Shown in pieces: positions 5,119 through 51,971 of a stretch of 56,799 bases of DNA. Made by a program: the position numbers and the translations under genes. The notes beneath the pieces are model-generated. The model ran no database searches. It had not been told where the DNA came from and saw nothing but the letters and a program-made list of their open reading frames with translations. Each line of letters begins with the position of its first letter. The stretch's first letter is position 1. Source of the DNA: Comamonadaceae bacterium (GTDB lineage: Bacteria; Pseudomonadota; Gammaproteobacteria; Burkholderiales; Burkholderiaceae_C); contig JAJTGH010000001.1 of NCBI GenBank assembly GCA_021299555.1, forward strand, positions 1-56,799, read 5' to 3'.

Positions 5119-7428
5119 ATGCCACCCACCCCGGCCGAGGCCCAAAATGACAAACGCGAGGGCCTGCGCCGCGCTGCGCTGATCTACCACGAGCAACCCA
5201 CCCCGGGCAAACTGGCGATCACAGCCACCAAGCAGCTGACCAATCAGCGCGATCTGGCGCTGGCCTACTCGCCCGGCGTGGCCGCCCCTTGCGAGGAAAT
5301 CGTCAAGGACCCGAACAACGCCTTCAAATACACCAGCCGGGGCAACCTGGTGGCCGTGATCACCAATGGCACGGCCGTGCTCGGCCTGGGCAATATCGGC
5401 CCGCTGGCCTCCAAGCCGGTGATGGAGGGCAAGGCGGTTTTGTTCAAGAAGTTCGCCGGCGTGGACGTGTTCGACATCGAAATCAACGAACAGGATCCGG
5501 CCAGGCTGGTGGAGGTCATTGCCGCACTCGAGCCCACGTTTGGCGCCATCAATCTTGAAGACATCAAGGCGCCCGACTGCTTTTACGTCGAGCGCGAGTT
5601 GCGCAAGCGGCTCAAGATCCCGGTCTTCCACGACGACCAGCATGGCACGGCCATCACCGTGGGCGCAGCCATGATCAACGCGCTCAAGATCGCCGGCAAA
5701 AAGCCTGGCGAGGTCAAGCTGGTGACCTCGGGCGCAGGCGCTGCTGCCCTGGCCTGCCTCAATTTGCTGCTGCACCTGGGCGTGGCTCGAAAAAACATTT
5801 TTGTGACCGATCTGGCCGGCGTGGTCTACGAGGGTCGCACCGAGTTGATGGATGAGGACAAGGTGCAGTTTGCACAACACACCTCGGCACGCAATTTGAG
5901 CGACGTCATCGAGGGCGCGGATGTGTTTCTGGGCCTGTCGGCAGGCGGCGTGCTCAAGAGCGAGATGGTGCGCAAGATGGCGGCCAACCCGATCATCTTT
6001 GCACTGGCCAACCCCAATCCGGAGATCACGCCGGAGGACGTCAAGGCCGTGCGCAGCGACGCCATCATGGCCACTGGCCGCACCGACTACCCCAACCAGG
6101 TCAACAACGTCCTGTGTTTTCCCTACATCTTTCGCGGCGCGCTTGATTCAGGGGCTTCGACCATCACGCTGGAAATGGAGATCGCTGCGGTGCACGCCAT
6201 TGCCGAGCTGGCACAGGCAGAGCAAAGCGAGGTGGTGGCTGCCGCTTATGTGGGTGAGAAACTGGCCTTTGGGCCCGAATACCTGATCCCCAAACCGTTC
6301 GATCCGCGTTTGATGATGAAGATCGCTCCGGCCGTGGCTCAGGCGGCGGCGCAAAGCGGGGTGGCCCAGCGGCCGATCACCGATCTGAACGCCTACGTCG
6401 AGCGGCTGCAGAGCTTTGTTTACGCATCAGGCACCACCATGAAGCCGATCTTTGCGGCAGCCAAGCTGGCCACGCGCAAGCGGGTCGCTTATGCCGAAGG
6501 CGAGGAAGAGCGGGTGCTCAGGGCCTGCCAGATCGTGGTCGACGAGGGGCTGGCTCGGCCCACCTTGATCGGCCGGCCGTCCGTGATCGGGCAGCGGATC
6601 GAAAAATTCGGACTGCGCCTGAGGCAGGGGCTGGACTACGAAATCGTCAATGTCGAGCAAGACGAGCGCTACCGCGACTTCTGGCAGACCTACCACCGCA
6701 TGATGGAGCGCCGCGGCGTGACCGCGCAGATGGCCAAGATCGAGATGCGCCGTCGCCTGACCCTCATCGGCAGCATGCTGCTGCACAAAGGCGATGTCGA
6801 CGGACTGATCGTTGGCACCTGGGGAACCACGCGGATACACCTCGATCACATCGATCAGGTGGTCGGCAAGCGCGCCGGTGTGAGCACCTATGCCTGCATG
6901 AATGGTCTGATGCTGCCCGGTCGGCAGGTTTTCCTGGTCGACACGCATGTGAACTACGACCCGACCGCCGAGCAGCTGTGCGAAATCACCACGATGGCCG
7001 CCGAGGAGATGATGCGCTTTGGCATCAAACCCAAAGCAGCCTTGCTGTCACACTCCAATTTTGGCTCTTCCGAGCAGCCCAGTGCACTGAAAATGCGCCA
7101 CACCTTGGCGCTGCTGCGCCAGCACGCCCCCTGGCTGGAGGTCGACGGCGAGATGCATGGCGACGTCGCGCTGGACGCCAAGGCGCGTCAAGACATCATG
7201 CCAAACAGCACCCTGTCCGGCGAGGCCAATTTGCTGGTGCTGCCCAATATCGACGCAGCCAACATTTGCTACAACCTGCTCAAGACCACCGCTGGCGGCA
7301 ATATTGCCATCGGCCCGGTGTTGCTGGGGGCGGCCAAGCCGGTCCACATCCTGACAGCCAGCACCACCGTGCGGCGTATCGTGAACATGACAGCGCTGAC
7401 CGTCGCGGATGCCAGCGCCACCCGCTGA
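5119..7428 (+). CDS. maeB: NADP-dependent malic enzyme with C-terminal phosphotransacetylase-like domain (MaeB type)
   Basis: 769 aa: malic enzyme core ([27 protein letters not shown]) fused to a PTA-like domain. Confidence 0.93.
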
Positions 7429-7651
7429 AATCCACCTTCAGGGTGCATAAAACGACCCTGATGCCACCTGAACGATGAGCGAAGACTAACTTACTTCGCT
7501 AAAAAACCCGCATCTCCGACAGGCTGATGCGGGTTAGCCCTTGCATTTTTCGGGCACATCCGTCACACTACTGCCCTGAAAGTTAAGGGTTAACCCGGTC
7601 GGACCCTGGAGGTGTCACGGGTTGGCCCCTGAAGTTCAGAAAAGGTTTTTC

Positions 7652-47228: not shown

Positions 47229-47687
47229 ATGAAGCTGGATGTCAATGGAAAGGTGCGCGAGCTCGATGTGGAGCCCGATATGCCCTTGTTGTGGGCCTTG
47301 CGCGACGAGCTCGATGAAAAGGGCCCCAAGTTCGGTTGCGGCATTGCCCAGTGTGGCGCCTGCACCGTGCTGCTCAATGGCGAGCCGGTGCGCTCTTGTT
47401 CTTACCCGGTCTCGGCGGCCGGCGGCCAAAAGGTGGTGACCATCGAGGGCCTGGCCAACAAAGGCAAGCTCCATCCGGTGCAACAGGCCTGGATCGACCA
47501 CCAGGTGCCCCAGTGCGGCTACTGTCAGGGCGGCCAGATCCTGGCGGCCGTGGCTTTGCTCAAGAAAAAGCCCAAACCCACCGATCAGGACATTGATGCG
47601 GCCATGACCAACATCTGTCGTTGCGGCACCTATGCACGTGTGCGCAAGGCCATCCATGCGGTTGCTGCCAAGGGGGTGCGAGCATGA
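47229..47687 (+). CDS. iorA: (2Fe-2S)-binding small subunit of a xanthine-oxidase-family molybdenum hydroxylase (IorA-like)
   Basis: [21 protein letters not shown] and CGYCQGGQI...[13 protein letters not shown]; start ATG 47229. Confidence 0.88.
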
Positions 47688-49849
47688 AAACCGATCAGCA
47701 AACCGTCAAGCGCCCGGATCGGCGTTTCTTCCTCAAGACCTCTGCCTCGGCCGCTGCTGGCCTGAGCCTGGGCTTTTATCTGCCCGGCCGCAGCGACGCG
47801 TCCAATGCAAAGCGTTTGAATGCCTGGGTGGAGGTGCAGCCCGACGAAACCGTGGTCATCCGCTATGCCCGCACAGAAATGGGACAGGGCAGTCGCACGT
47901 CTGCGCCCATGCTTGTGGCCGAGGAGCTCGATGCCGACTGGAGCCGGGTGCGCGTTGAATACGTACCGGCCCATGAAAACCTGGCCTCCAAACGCGCCTA
48001 TGGCGACATGGCCACGGTGGGAAGCCGAACCATCCGCCAGTCTCAGGAGTACCTGCGCAAGGCCGGTGCCACGGCGCGCCACATGCTCGTGGCTGCGGCC
48101 GCCCAGCAGTGGGGCGTGCCGGCGGCAGACTGCACGACGTCCAAGGGGCGCGTCACGCACGCGGCCAGCAAGCGCTCGATCAGCTACGGCAAACTCGCCG
48201 AGGCTGCAGCCAAGCTCGAGCCGCCCAAAGAGGTCAAGCTCAAGGACCCCAAGGATTGGGTCATCGCAGGCAAACCCGTGCCGCGGGTCGACATTCCGGA
48301 CATTGTCTCGGGCCGGATTCGTTACGGCATTGACGCCCAGGTGCCTGGCATGCTGCACGCTGCCGTGGCTGCCAGTCCGGTGTTCAATGGCAAGGTGCGC
48401 AGCCTCGATGCCTCCAAGGTGGAAAACCGCCGCGGCATCGTCAAGGTGCTCAATTTGGGTGAATTTGTGGCAGTGGTGGCCGACAACTACTGGCGCGCCA
48501 AAGAAGCCCTGCGCGAGGTCGCGATCGATTGGGACGTGGGTGAGCACGGCAAGCTCAACAGCGCCGCCATCATGGAGCACTTCAAGGGCGGCTTTGACCA
48601 GCCCGAACTGGCCGTGGCCCGCAACGATGGCAACACCACCGAGGCGCTGGCCAAGGCCGGCAAGGTGATCGAGGCCGACTACTACACGCCTTATCTGGCG
48701 CACGCCACCATGGAGCCCATGGTCTGTACCGCCTGGTTGCAGCCCGACAAGCTCCAGATCTGGACGTCCACCCAGAATCCTGAGGCCACCTTGGCCACCG
48801 CTGCGCGCACTGCCGGGATCGATCAGTCCAAGGTGCTGGTCCATCCCATGCAACTCGGCGGCGGCCTGGGGCGCAAGAGCCCGCAGGACTTCACCCGGCA
48901 GTCGGTCATGATCGCCAAGGAAATGCCGGGCAAGGCCATCAAGATGGTCTGGAGCCGCGAGGAAGACATACAGCACGACCTGTATCGGCCGGCCAGCCTG
49001 GTGCGCTTTAAGGCTGCGCTCAATGCGCAGGGCACCATCGATGCTCTGCACATCCGCGTGGCTGCGCCCTCTTTGCTGGCCACGTTGCTGCGCCTGCCCT
49101 TGCCCAGGGGTGTGGACGGGCAGGCGGTGGCCAGCTTCAACGACCACCCTTACGACATCCCCAACAGTCTGGTCGACTACGCCCAGCGCAACACCAATGT
49201 TCCGGTGGGTTTTTGGCGCACCGTGGGCCACTCGCAAAACCCGTACATGCGCGAGTGCTTTATGGACGAGTTGGCCGCGGCCGCCGGCAAGGATCCGCTG
49301 GCCTTTCGCCAAAGCATGCTCGGGGGCAGGCACCCGCGCGACCGCGCCATCCTCGATGCAGTGGCCAAGGCTGCTGACTGGGGCAAGCCCTTGCCCGCCG
49401 GAGTCTTTCGTGGGATCGCTGAGACCGAAGGCTATGGCAGCTACACCGCCTGCGTGTGTGAGGTCTCAGTCAATGCCCGCGGCGAGGTCAAGATTCATCG
49501 GGTGGTCATGGGCATTGATTGCGGCTACGCGGTCAACCCCGACAACATCGAGGCGCAGGTCCAGGGCAGTGTGGTCCACGGACTCAGTGCGATCTTCTGG
49601 GGCGAGATGACGGTCAAGGAAGGGCGGATCGAGCAGTCCAACTTCCACGACTACCGGATGATGAGGCTCAACGAGATGCCCAAGGTGCAGACGGTCATTG
49701 CAACGACCGGCGGCTTCTGGGGTGGCGTGGGTGAACCGGCGCAGGCGCCCTTGGCACCGGCCCTGGTCAATGCCATCTCGGCGGCCACCGGCAAGCGTTA
49801 TCGCTCGCTGCCGCTGAAGAACCACGGGCTCAGTCTGGTCAAGGCATGA
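47684..49849 (+). CDS. iorB: Molybdopterin-binding large subunit of a xanthine-oxidase-family hydroxylase (IorB-like), Tat signal
   Basis: N-terminal [22 protein letters not shown] Tat-like signal; C-terminal [30 protein letters not shown] containing the active-site GxGEP; ATG overlaps the iorA stop. Confidence 0.88.
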
Positions 49850-50277
49850 GGCGCGCGCCCTTCGGGGCGTGGGCCTGTGCCGCTGTGCTGGCGCTTTCAT
49901 TGGGCCCGCCCCTCTCGGCGCTCGGTCAGGGCGTGGCTGCACAGGCCGGCGATCAGGCCCTGCAGAGCATAGAGCGCGGCCGCGCCCTGCTGGCCAACCG
50001 CACCGAGACCGGCTGTGTTCTGTGCCATGCAGTGCCCGGATTCGCTGCGGGCGGGCAACTGGGGCCGCCCCTGGCCGGCGTTGGCCAGCGCTACTCCGCC
50101 GAGCAATTGCGCCGGCGCATTGCCGACGCCCGGGTGTTCAACCCGCAGACCATCATGCCCGCCTACCTGAGCACCGAGGGCTTGCAGGCCGTGGCCCTGG
50201 CCTATCAGGGGCGCACGGTGCTCACGGCGCAAGGCCTCGACGACATCGTGGCTTACCTGATGGCGCAAGCCAAATGA
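49846..50277 (+). CDS. soxX: Sulfur-oxidation c-type cytochrome SoxX
   Basis: Heme motif ETGCVLCHAVPG; LGPPLAGVGQRYSAEQLRRRIADARVFNPQTIMPAYL; ATG overlaps the iorB stop. Confidence 0.87.
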   Translation: MRRAPFGAWACAAVLALSLGPPLSALGQGVAAQAGDQALQSIERGRALLANRTETGCVLCHAVPGFAAGGQLGPPLAGVGQRYSAEQLRRRIADARVFNPQTIMPAYLSTEGLQAVALAYQGRTVLTAQGLDDIVAYLMAQAK

Positions 50278-50834
50278 ATTCGGTCTGGACAACAATGGCG
50301 CCCATGATATTTAGCGCAGTCTCTCGCACGTCTCACAAAGCGGATCGCGAACCGGGTGCAGCCCCGCAGACCGCGACGCGGCGATCGGTATGCCGCGCCG
50401 CGCTGGCCGTGGCGGCCTTGGGAGCCAGTTCGGTGGGCCGCGCCCAAGGCATGTTTTCGGGCACGCTGCTGAGCCTGCCGCGCATGATGGACCCGATCGT
50501 TCAAGGTCGACCCCTGAGCGAGGGCGGTATTGCGCTGGACATCCCGGTACTGGCCGACAACGGTTTTTTGGTACCGGCTCGGGTGGTGGTCGACAGCCCC
50601 ATGACCGAACAAGACCATGTCACCCAGCTCTACCTTTTGTCGCAGCGAAATCCGGTGACCCAGATGGCTGTTTTTCATATGGGACCCTGGAGTGGCCGCG
50701 CCGAGGTGAGCACCCGGCTGCGTTTGGCTGGCTCGCAGAAAGTGGTGGCGCTGGCCAGGCTGTCTGACGGCTCTTTCCGTTGGCGCCAGACCGATGTGAT
50801 CGTTACCGAGTCGGCCTGTGTGGACGGGAGCTGA
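50274..50834 (+). CDS. soxY: SoxY-like sulfur carrier, noncanonical C-terminus, Tat-like signal
   Basis: TRRSVCRAALAVAALGASSVGRAQ; GGIALDIPVLADNGFLVPARVVVDSPM; RNPVTQMAVFHMGP; ends VIVTESACVDGS*. Confidence 0.82.
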   Translation: MNSVWTTMAPMIFSAVSRTSHKADREPGAAPQTATRRSVCRAALAVAALGASSVGRAQGMFSGTLLSLPRMMDPIVQGRPLSEGGIALDIPVLADNGFLVPARVVVDSPMTEQDHVTQLYLLSQRNPVTQMAVFHMGPWSGRAEVSTRLRLAGSQKVVALARLSDGSFRWRQTDVIVTESACVDGS

Positions 50835-50837
50835 GAG

Positions 50838-51182
50838 ATGAGCCAGGCGCGGCTGCAATTGCCCAACCGGGTGGCCCATGGCGAGGTCGTCAAGGCCCGC
50901 CTGCTGGTGGCACACCCCATGGAGACCGGCTACCTGCAGGACTTGAGCGGAAAAACCATCCCGCGCAATGTGATCCGTGAGCTGACCTGCGATTACGGTG
51001 GTCGTCAGGTGTTTCGGGTCGAGCCTTCATCGGGGATCTCGGGCAATCCGCTGTTCGAGTTCTTTTTTCGCGCCCAGGAAACCGGCGAGGTGTGGGTGCG
51101 CTGGGTCGACGACCAGGGCCAAGGCGGTGAGCTGCGTCAGCTGCTTCGGGTGCAGCTGCCGTCCTCGAACGCGCCGGGCTGA
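50838..51182 (+). CDS. soxZ: SoxZ sulfur carrier partner
   Basis: GEVVKARLLVAHPMETGYLQDLSGKTIPRNVIRELTCDYGGRQVFRVEPSSGISGNPLFEFFFRA. Confidence 0.9.
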   Translation: MSQARLQLPNRVAHGEVVKARLLVAHPMETGYLQDLSGKTIPRNVIRELTCDYGGRQVFRVEPSSGISGNPLFEFFFRAQETGEVWVRWVDDQGQGGELRQLLRVQLPSSNAPG

Positions 51183-51185
51183 GCC

Positions 51186-51971
51186 ATGCGCTGGCGCTGT
51201 GTGCTGCTGGGCGCCTGGCTGCTGACCTGGGCGCAATGGGGCGTGGCCCAGCAGCGCGTCATTCCCCTCGATCAGCTGCGTTCGGGCCTGAGCTATGCCG
51301 GCGCCGATGTGCGCGCCTTGCAGGCCGATGAATTTGGCAATCCCGCCCAGCTGTGGCTGCTGCGCGGCGAGCAGCGCTGGATTGAGCCCGTGGGCCCGGA
51401 GGGCAAGAGCTGTCAGCAGTGTCATGGGGCTGTGGCCCAGGGCCTGCGCGGCGTGGCGGCCCGTTACCCTGCCATGGACCGCCGCAGCGGCGAGCTGATG
51501 ATGCTGGAAGACCGGATCCGCAATTGCCGTACGCGTCAGCAGCGGGGCCCGGAACTGGCCTTTGAATCGGACGACTTGCTCGCCTTGAGTTTGTATCTGA
51601 CCCAGGCTTCAGCGGGAGTGCGCCTGCAGGTGGACATTGGGGGCGCTGCGCGGGTGCATTGGCAGGAGGGCGAGCGGCTGTTCATGCAGCGCCGCGGCCA
51701 GCTCAACCTGGCTTGTACGCACTGTCATGACCAAAACCACGGCCAGCGGTTCTACACCGACCTGCTCAGCCAGGGCCAGCCCAATGGGTATCCGATCTAC
51801 CGCATGGAGTGGCAAAAAGTCGGCTCACTCGAGCGGCGGCTGCGCAGCTGCCTGGTGGGTGTGCGGGCCGAGCTGCCGCCCTGGGGCGCGCTGCAGTTGC
51901 GCCAGCTCGCGCTCTACCTGGGCTGGCGTGGCCAGGGGCTGCCCGTGGAGTCGCCCGCGGTGCGCAAATAA
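51186..51971 (+). CDS. soxA: Diheme SoxA sulfur-oxidation c-type cytochrome
   Basis: Two CxxCH motifs (CQQCH, CTHCH), RIRNC, and RLRSCLVGVRAELPPWGALQ with the conserved Cys ligand. Confidence 0.9.
   Translation: MRWRCVLLGAWLLTWAQWGVAQQRVIPLDQLRSGLSYAGADVRALQADEFGNPAQLWLLRGEQRWIEPVGPEGKSCQQCHGAVAQGLRGVAARYPAMDRRSGELMMLEDRIRNCRTRQQRGPELAFESDDLLALSLYLTQASAGVRLQVDIGGAARVHWQEGERLFMQRRGQLNLACTHCHDQNHGQRFYTDLLSQGQPNGYPIYRMEWQKVGSLERRLRSCLVGVRAELPPWGALQLRQLALYLGWRGQGLPVESPAVRK

Follow-up and report, generated by a model that had tools for sequence, protein, structure and literature searches.

The window analyzed here is a 56,799-nucleotide stretch of DNA from a Comamonadaceae bacterium (GenBank assembly GCA_021299555.1, contig JAJTGH010000001.1, positions 1 to 56,799), in which a molybdenum hydroxylase of the IorAB type is encoded together with the sulfur oxidation proteins SoxX, SoxY, SoxZ, and SoxA. 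The genes iorA-iorB-soxX-soxY-soxZ-soxA form six open reading frames (ORFs) on one strand at 47229-51971 (Table 1). This gene order and its junction coordinates had been given in an original prediction made from the nucleotide letters; both were confirmed when the ORFs were read again, and the families agreed with it in profile searches. Three of the junctions are 4-bp ATGA overlaps (iorA stop 47687 and iorB ATG 47684; iorB stop 49849 and soxX ATG 49846; soxX stop 50277 and soxY ATG 50274), and the other two are 3-bp gaps (soxY stop 50834 and soxZ ATG 50838; soxZ stop 51182 and soxA ATG 51186). Because of the start/stop overlaps, the six genes are probably co-transcribed. No sigma-70-like promoter was found upstream of the unit by a simple scan, and no Rfam element was found in the window.

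Table 1. Genes of the iorAB-soxXYZA unit, with positions in the window and the evidence for each assignment
Gene and product	Position	Strand	Evidence
iorA-like small subunit, two [2Fe-2S] domains, 152 amino acids	47229..47687	+	Fer2_2 1.3e-29, Fer2 6e-7
iorB-like large molybdopterin subunit, 721 amino acids	47684..49849	+	MoCoBD_1/2, tree, residues, AlphaFold model
soxX, one c-type heme (CVLCH)	49846..50277	+	TIGR04485 73.6 bits (cut-off 61); PDB 1h31_B
soxY, variant swinging arm VTESACVDGS in place of GGCGG	50274..50834	+	PF13501; best family TIGR04487, below cut-off
soxZ	50838..51182	+	TIGR04490 83 bits (cut-off 76)
soxA, diheme (CQQCH, CTHCH), C114 heme ligand, catalytic C222 and R218	51186..51971	+	TIGR04484 200.9 bits (cut-off 110)

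In canonical Sox oxidation, SoxAX attaches thiosulfate to the cysteine of SoxY, SoxB hydrolyses the product, and SoxCD oxidizes the remaining sulfane (PMC5336275). The unit resembles canonical Sox in that the catalytic residues of SoxXA are intact and the arm cysteine of SoxYZ is present, but it differs in that SoxB and SoxCD are missing from it, the GGCGG arm is replaced, and IorAB stands in their place. The heme sites and the catalytic cysteine that characterize canonical SoxXA were all found. Based on alignment with 1h31_A, the four heme-binding cysteines, the catalytic C222, and R218 were present in 123/123 linked SoxA proteins, and the C114 ligand in 121 of the 123. The C-terminus of the SoxY protein, by contrast, reads TESACVDGS, not GGCGG, and its score against TIGR04488, the canonical GGCGG-ending family, was 76.4 bits (cut-off 125). 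The top family was TIGR04487, the "SoxY-related AACIE arm protein", yet the score of 131.8 bits is under the cut-off of 172 and the end is SACVDGS, whereas that of the family is AACIE; many IorB-linked relatives scored above this cut-off (213.9, 196.0, and 230.3 bits, for example). Across the variant SoxYs the arm has changed from GGCGG to [A/S]AC[I/V/L][E/D], the form in the window being SACVD. The arm cysteine was retained in all 156 SoxY-like ORFs of the fetched loci, with an acidic residue no more than three positions after it in 144. Still other arms (SECGL, AACGD) were seen at L249 and L250, two iorAB-soxY(Z) loci that diverge furthest from the other linked loci. At L055 (G075:C134, 5050-7165), soxXYZA with the variant arm AGCVEG occurs with no iorAB beside it.

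The large subunit, IorB, begins with a twin-arginine translocation (Tat)-type sequence, RRFFLK. An AlphaFold model of the protein (predicted local distance difference test score 87, predicted template modeling score 0.87) matched 8gy3_C best among PDB entries (template modeling score 0.86). The small subunit with two [2Fe-2S] clusters and the MoCoBD large subunit with a catalytic glutamate are those of an IorAB-type enzyme, and no NCBIfam equivalog cut-off was reached by IorAB. In these subunits, in Tat export of the molybdenum subunit, and in the lack of an FAD subunit, the enzyme is like the periplasmic IorAB-like aldehyde, deoxyribose, and vanillin dehydrogenases; the partner genes of those enzymes include a cytochrome c subunit, whereas here they are soxXYZA. 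It also differs from the Gluconobacter 8gy3/PMC6365646 dehydrogenases, with about 27% identity and an FWGGxGE motif at the catalytic glutamate where these have an xPTGxGE-type motif, the 8gy3 row of the residue comparison being taken from a printed pairwise alignment.

A tree of 97 IorB proteins placed the linked ones in a single clade of 74 rows (Shimodaira-Hasegawa-like approximate likelihood ratio test support 100), 73 of which are linked to the sox genes. The unlinked row is L253 (G744:C6, 3652-7090), where iorAB has no sox gene in its flanks and adjoins a YeeE-type sulfur transporter gene (PF04143). Outside the clade were 19 IorBs of related genomes that are unlinked to SoxY, one IorB beside canonical soxYZAXB, and second IorBs near some of the clusters (L113_6085, L136_328, and L110_53), which were treated as bystanders. 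The IorB beside soxYZAXB is that of L226 (G712:C299, 2300-7396, minus strand), where iorAB lies directly upstream of the canonical genes (GGCGG arm), in the place occupied by soxCD in that genus. The catalytic set of Q364, the GGGxGR loop, R512, and E684 is kept in the linked clade. E367, R502-N503, and F678-W679 are specific to the clade and stand at or next to active-site motifs, from which their closeness to the molybdenum site was deduced. W679 was found in 100% of the linked IorBs; in 95% of the unlinked ones proline occupies this position, just ahead of G-x-G-E684.

The original prediction had envisaged a survey of the linkage between iorB and soxXYZA, and this association proved to be conserved. 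Among loci fetched through SoxY, an IorB large subunit was encoded within 6.5 kb in 121/127 variant-arm loci, which were picked by similarity to the window SoxY, and SoxB or SoxCD in 0/127; among the loci with a G[GSA]CG arm, most of them read with a flank of only 1.5 kb, IorB was found in 0/44 and SoxB or SoxCD in 32/44. In 301 sampled genomes of the host family, 38 fetched loci carried a variant-arm soxY and 37 of them also had iorB. Chance adjacency of iorAB and the sox genes was rejected, as the gene set recurs in the survey. At least 588 related SoxY stretches were present in one species-level genome collection; the best 80 of these belong to Alpha-, Beta-, and Gammaproteobacteria and include the genera Limnohabitans, Polaromonas, Ramlibacter, Massilia, Duganella, Azospirillum, Roseomonas, Xanthobacter, Ancylobacter, Chelatococcus, Hyphomonas, and Steroidobacter. 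In 37 loci read over about 9 kb, no further conserved partner (sulfurase, chaperone, hydrolase, transporter, or regulator) was found except FccB in a subset, and no cytochrome gene other than soxX and soxA was conserved in the neighborhood. The exception is a gene for an FccB/SoxF-type sulfide-dehydrogenase flavoprotein in the neighborhood of 29 to 30 loci, situated between iorB and soxX or near them (L201, L202, L204, L205, L207, L208, L260, and about 20 more). In the rearranged loci L214, L216, L217, L218, L220, and L257, iorAB is convergent with soxXYZA, and the two are separate neighboring units; because the facing units stay together, this suggests a functional tie that goes beyond shared transcription. 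Around the unit in the window, a P-type ATPase gene (by sequence) was found 0.6 kb upstream, and the next gene downstream has the opposite orientation.

The host genome is a metagenome-assembled genome of 2.97 Mb in 217 contigs, the window being contig C135; it is 82.85% complete and 4.15% contaminated, so single contigs could be foreign. It was searched family by family with profiles. The absence of soxB from the window, as first predicted, was borne out, since SoxB was matched on contig C16 only, and no soxCD lies beside the iorAB-soxXYZA cluster. It had also been anticipated that a canonical cluster elsewhere in the genome might undermine the idea of a separate unit. Such a cluster does exist on C16 (soxCDYZAXB, L013), but it encodes a separate SoxXYZA set, whose SoxY bears the GGCGG arm, and many relatives with the module lack SoxB. 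On these grounds, the possibility that the unit serves the canonical pathway of the host was rejected. The soxB of the C16 cluster (5720-7446) is split into two overlapping frames by a frameshift, which is either an assembly error or decay. A second iorAB-soxYZ operon, with the arm SACLD and without soxX or soxA, is located on contig C200 (L012, 498-5083); it is preceded by a gene for an FGE-sulfatase (SUMF1-like) protein. Against a foreign origin of these contigs, relatives of the same genus have a cluster of the window type and a separate canonical soxB.

The module does not require SoxB. No true SoxB was found in nine genomes of the host family that carry a verified cluster and are 96-100% complete (G198, G012, G213, G007, G120, G284, G205, G298, and G070), nor in five Limnohabitans-group genomes with the module. 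Four complete genomes of another family, f57, that have the module likewise had no SoxB (G374, G516, G602, and G616); the whole iorAB-fccB-soxXYZA cluster was read in G374, G516, and G616, and the soxXYZA part in G602. Reduced clusters were also found: at 20 linked loci SoxYZ is kept beside IorAB and SoxXA is absent there. In one Limnohabitans, iorAB-soxYZ lies at L090 and a bare soxX-soxA pair at L215 (G690:C2, 8247-9520). All 14 genomes of the Limnohabitans group that have reduced clusters, and G185 as well, encode SoxA elsewhere; the sole exception is G198, a single contig that is 99% complete, in which iorAB-soxYZ occurs with neither SoxA nor SoxB. Function without SoxXA was therefore rejected as a general rule.

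The gene association is not entirely new, as there is a single earlier mention. In Starkeya novella, a second sox cluster, soxX2Y2Z2A2F2, was noted to be associated with a molybdenum enzyme of the xanthine oxidase family, Snov_1975/1976; its expression on glucose, methanol, and thiosulfate was very low, its SoxAX and SoxYZ were undetected, and its authors concluded that it had no functional importance in the conditions they used (PMC3797975). By the gene content given in that paper, the Starkeya cluster is like the one described here, with xanthine-oxidase-family genes and soxXYZA and without soxB or soxCD. It carries an FccB/SoxF gene, as do about 30 of our loci, whereas the unit in the window is without soxF and has the arm SACVD. 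Related Ancylobacter and Xanthobacter loci were among those fetched (L163 and L142). In a literature search short of most subscription journals, the combination was mentioned only in PMC3797975, and none of the papers found describes the module as a family or its function. The quinoprotein-dehydrogenase-associated SoxYZ-like carrier (TIGR04557; ped cluster, XoxF) is comparable in that a SoxYZ-like carrier is encoded beside a periplasmic dehydrogenase; that system, however, has a fused SoxYZ, SoxH, and pyrroloquinoline quinone (PQQ) enzymes, whereas here the carrier is unfused and accompanied by SoxXA and a molybdenum enzyme. The TIGR04557 scores of the two separate genes were 52.1 and 57.3 bits, below the cut-off of 140.

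The unit retains the loader and the carrier but lacks SoxB and SoxCD, in place of which it has a molybdenum hydroxylase with altered active-site neighbors; the arm, too, has changed. The simplest reading is that the SoxY arm now visits IorB. We tentatively propose, at somewhat less than an even chance, that the genes encode a SoxB-independent, stand-alone periplasmic module outside the thiosulfate pathway, in which the SoxYZ arm delivers a group loaded by SoxXA to the molybdenum site of IorAB for oxidation. SoxXA, its cysteine chemistry intact, would attach to the variant arm cysteine either a sulfur-linked substrate or an activating sulfane; the altered acidic arm, which would serve neither SoxB nor SoxCD, would present the bound group to the molybdenum site; IorAB would oxidize the bound carbon (or sulfur) by hydroxylation; and the electrons would enter c-type cytochromes, two at SoxXA and two at IorAB. 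SoxYZ would thereby be in direct contact with IorB, and the arm would carry the substrate. The more specific version, a widespread system in which SoxXA loads an organic sulfur compound or an aldehyde on the modified arm and the hydroxylase oxidizes it while bound, is considered doubtful; to our knowledge, it would be the first periplasmic case of an enzyme of the xanthine oxidase family whose substrate is held on a swinging protein arm. A dedicated module of IorAB with SoxXA and SoxYZ, apart from thiosulfate oxidation, had already been proposed in the original prediction, and this part of it finds good support in the conserved linkage, the changed arm, the private IorB clade, and the SoxB-less genomes; the organosulfur, aldehyde, or heteroaromatic substrates suggested there are putative. 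Three observations weigh against our proposal. The module is modestly enriched in SoxB-positive genomes of the host family (30/39 versus 136/262, Fisher p 0.003; background 166/301), so some tie to a sulfur-oxidizing life remains; the FccB/SoxF neighborhood fits inorganic sulfur no worse than an organic substrate; and SoxXA is not strictly required in cis, given G198 and the 20 linked loci without adjacent SoxXA.

Other explanations of the pairing have to be weighed against these data. SoxXA, together with FccB where present, might charge SoxYZ with sulfane, and the arm would then re-sulfurate or protect the labile Mo=S group after Tat export. Such a donor or repair role is consistent with the FccB genes and with the lack of a sulfurase or chaperone gene in the conserved set, and in the canonical system the active form of the carrier bears a persulfide, with sulfide as its activator (PMC5336275). 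SoxYZ-like carriers elsewhere also repeatedly adjoin periplasmic dehydrogenases, namely PQQ alcohol dehydrogenases with adjacent active-site cysteines (PMC12997753; PMC11237559), a pairing that fits a substrate carrier and a sulfur donor alike. Against the donor role, the 20 sampled IorBs outside the clade belong to the same superfamily and have no adjacent variant carrier gene. The sulfuration of molybdenum enzymes is moreover cytoplasmic and precedes export, which also counts against it, and overall we regard this role as unlikely. For the function of the arm in IorAB, a substrate carrier is most likely and a sulfur donor to the molybdenum site comes next; sequence alone cannot tell them apart. 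The original prediction had also suggested that SoxX and SoxA act as electron acceptors. Their three hemes would then simply take the electrons of IorAB, like the cytochrome c subunit of the aldehyde, deoxyribose, or vanillin dehydrogenases, and SoxYZ would be a passenger or regulator. The closest solved relative, 8gy3_C, comes from Gluconobacter, where it forms the large subunit of a membrane-bound aldehyde dehydrogenase, an iorAB-like deoxyribose dehydrogenase operon includes a cytochrome c gene (PMC6365646), and the unit has no other conserved cytochrome gene nearby. This role nevertheless agrees less well with the data: SoxYZ persists at loci that have no SoxXA, and the invariant C222 and R218 of SoxA would be needless for mere electron transfer. 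It seems improbable.

It is more improbable still that the two parts are co-regulated but separate, with SoxXYZA clearing thiosulfate, sulfide, or persulfides harmful to the cell or to the molybdenum enzyme and SoxYZ making no direct contact with IorAB. The presence of FccB in many clusters and the enrichment in SoxB-positive genomes are in line with this explanation, and there has been speculation that a SoxYZ variant encoded next to methanol dehydrogenase is protective (PMC11237559); a carrier without SoxB, however, cannot release sulfate in the known scheme, and both the arm change and the clade-specific IorB residues track the pairing. The lowest probability is assigned to the replacement of SoxCD by IorAB as the sulfur dehydrogenase acting on the SoxY-S-S- sulfane in ordinary thiosulfate or sulfide oxidation. 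The position of iorAB at L226 would suit it, but the IorAB encoded there is of the other clade, the module recurs without SoxB, and the host genome has its own soxCD. In addition, soxY1 and not soxY2 was needed for thiosulfate oxidation in Bradyrhizobium diazoefficiens (PMC5748708), which bears on the question if soxY2 is assumed to be of the variant type.

In surveys of genomes and metagenomes, genes annotated soxX, soxY, soxZ, or soxA are routinely taken as a sign of thiosulfate oxidation. Yet much of what is found in this way (at least 588 related SoxY stretches in one species-level collection) represents a unit that can exist where SoxB is missing and that is linked to a molybdenum hydroxylase, and the arm motif together with the FWGGxGE motif provides a simple sequence test that separates this module from canonical Sox. 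Small-genome freshwater bacteria such as Limnohabitans render the module testable. Should the arm indeed bring a substrate to the molybdenum enzyme, this would be new chemistry for both families.

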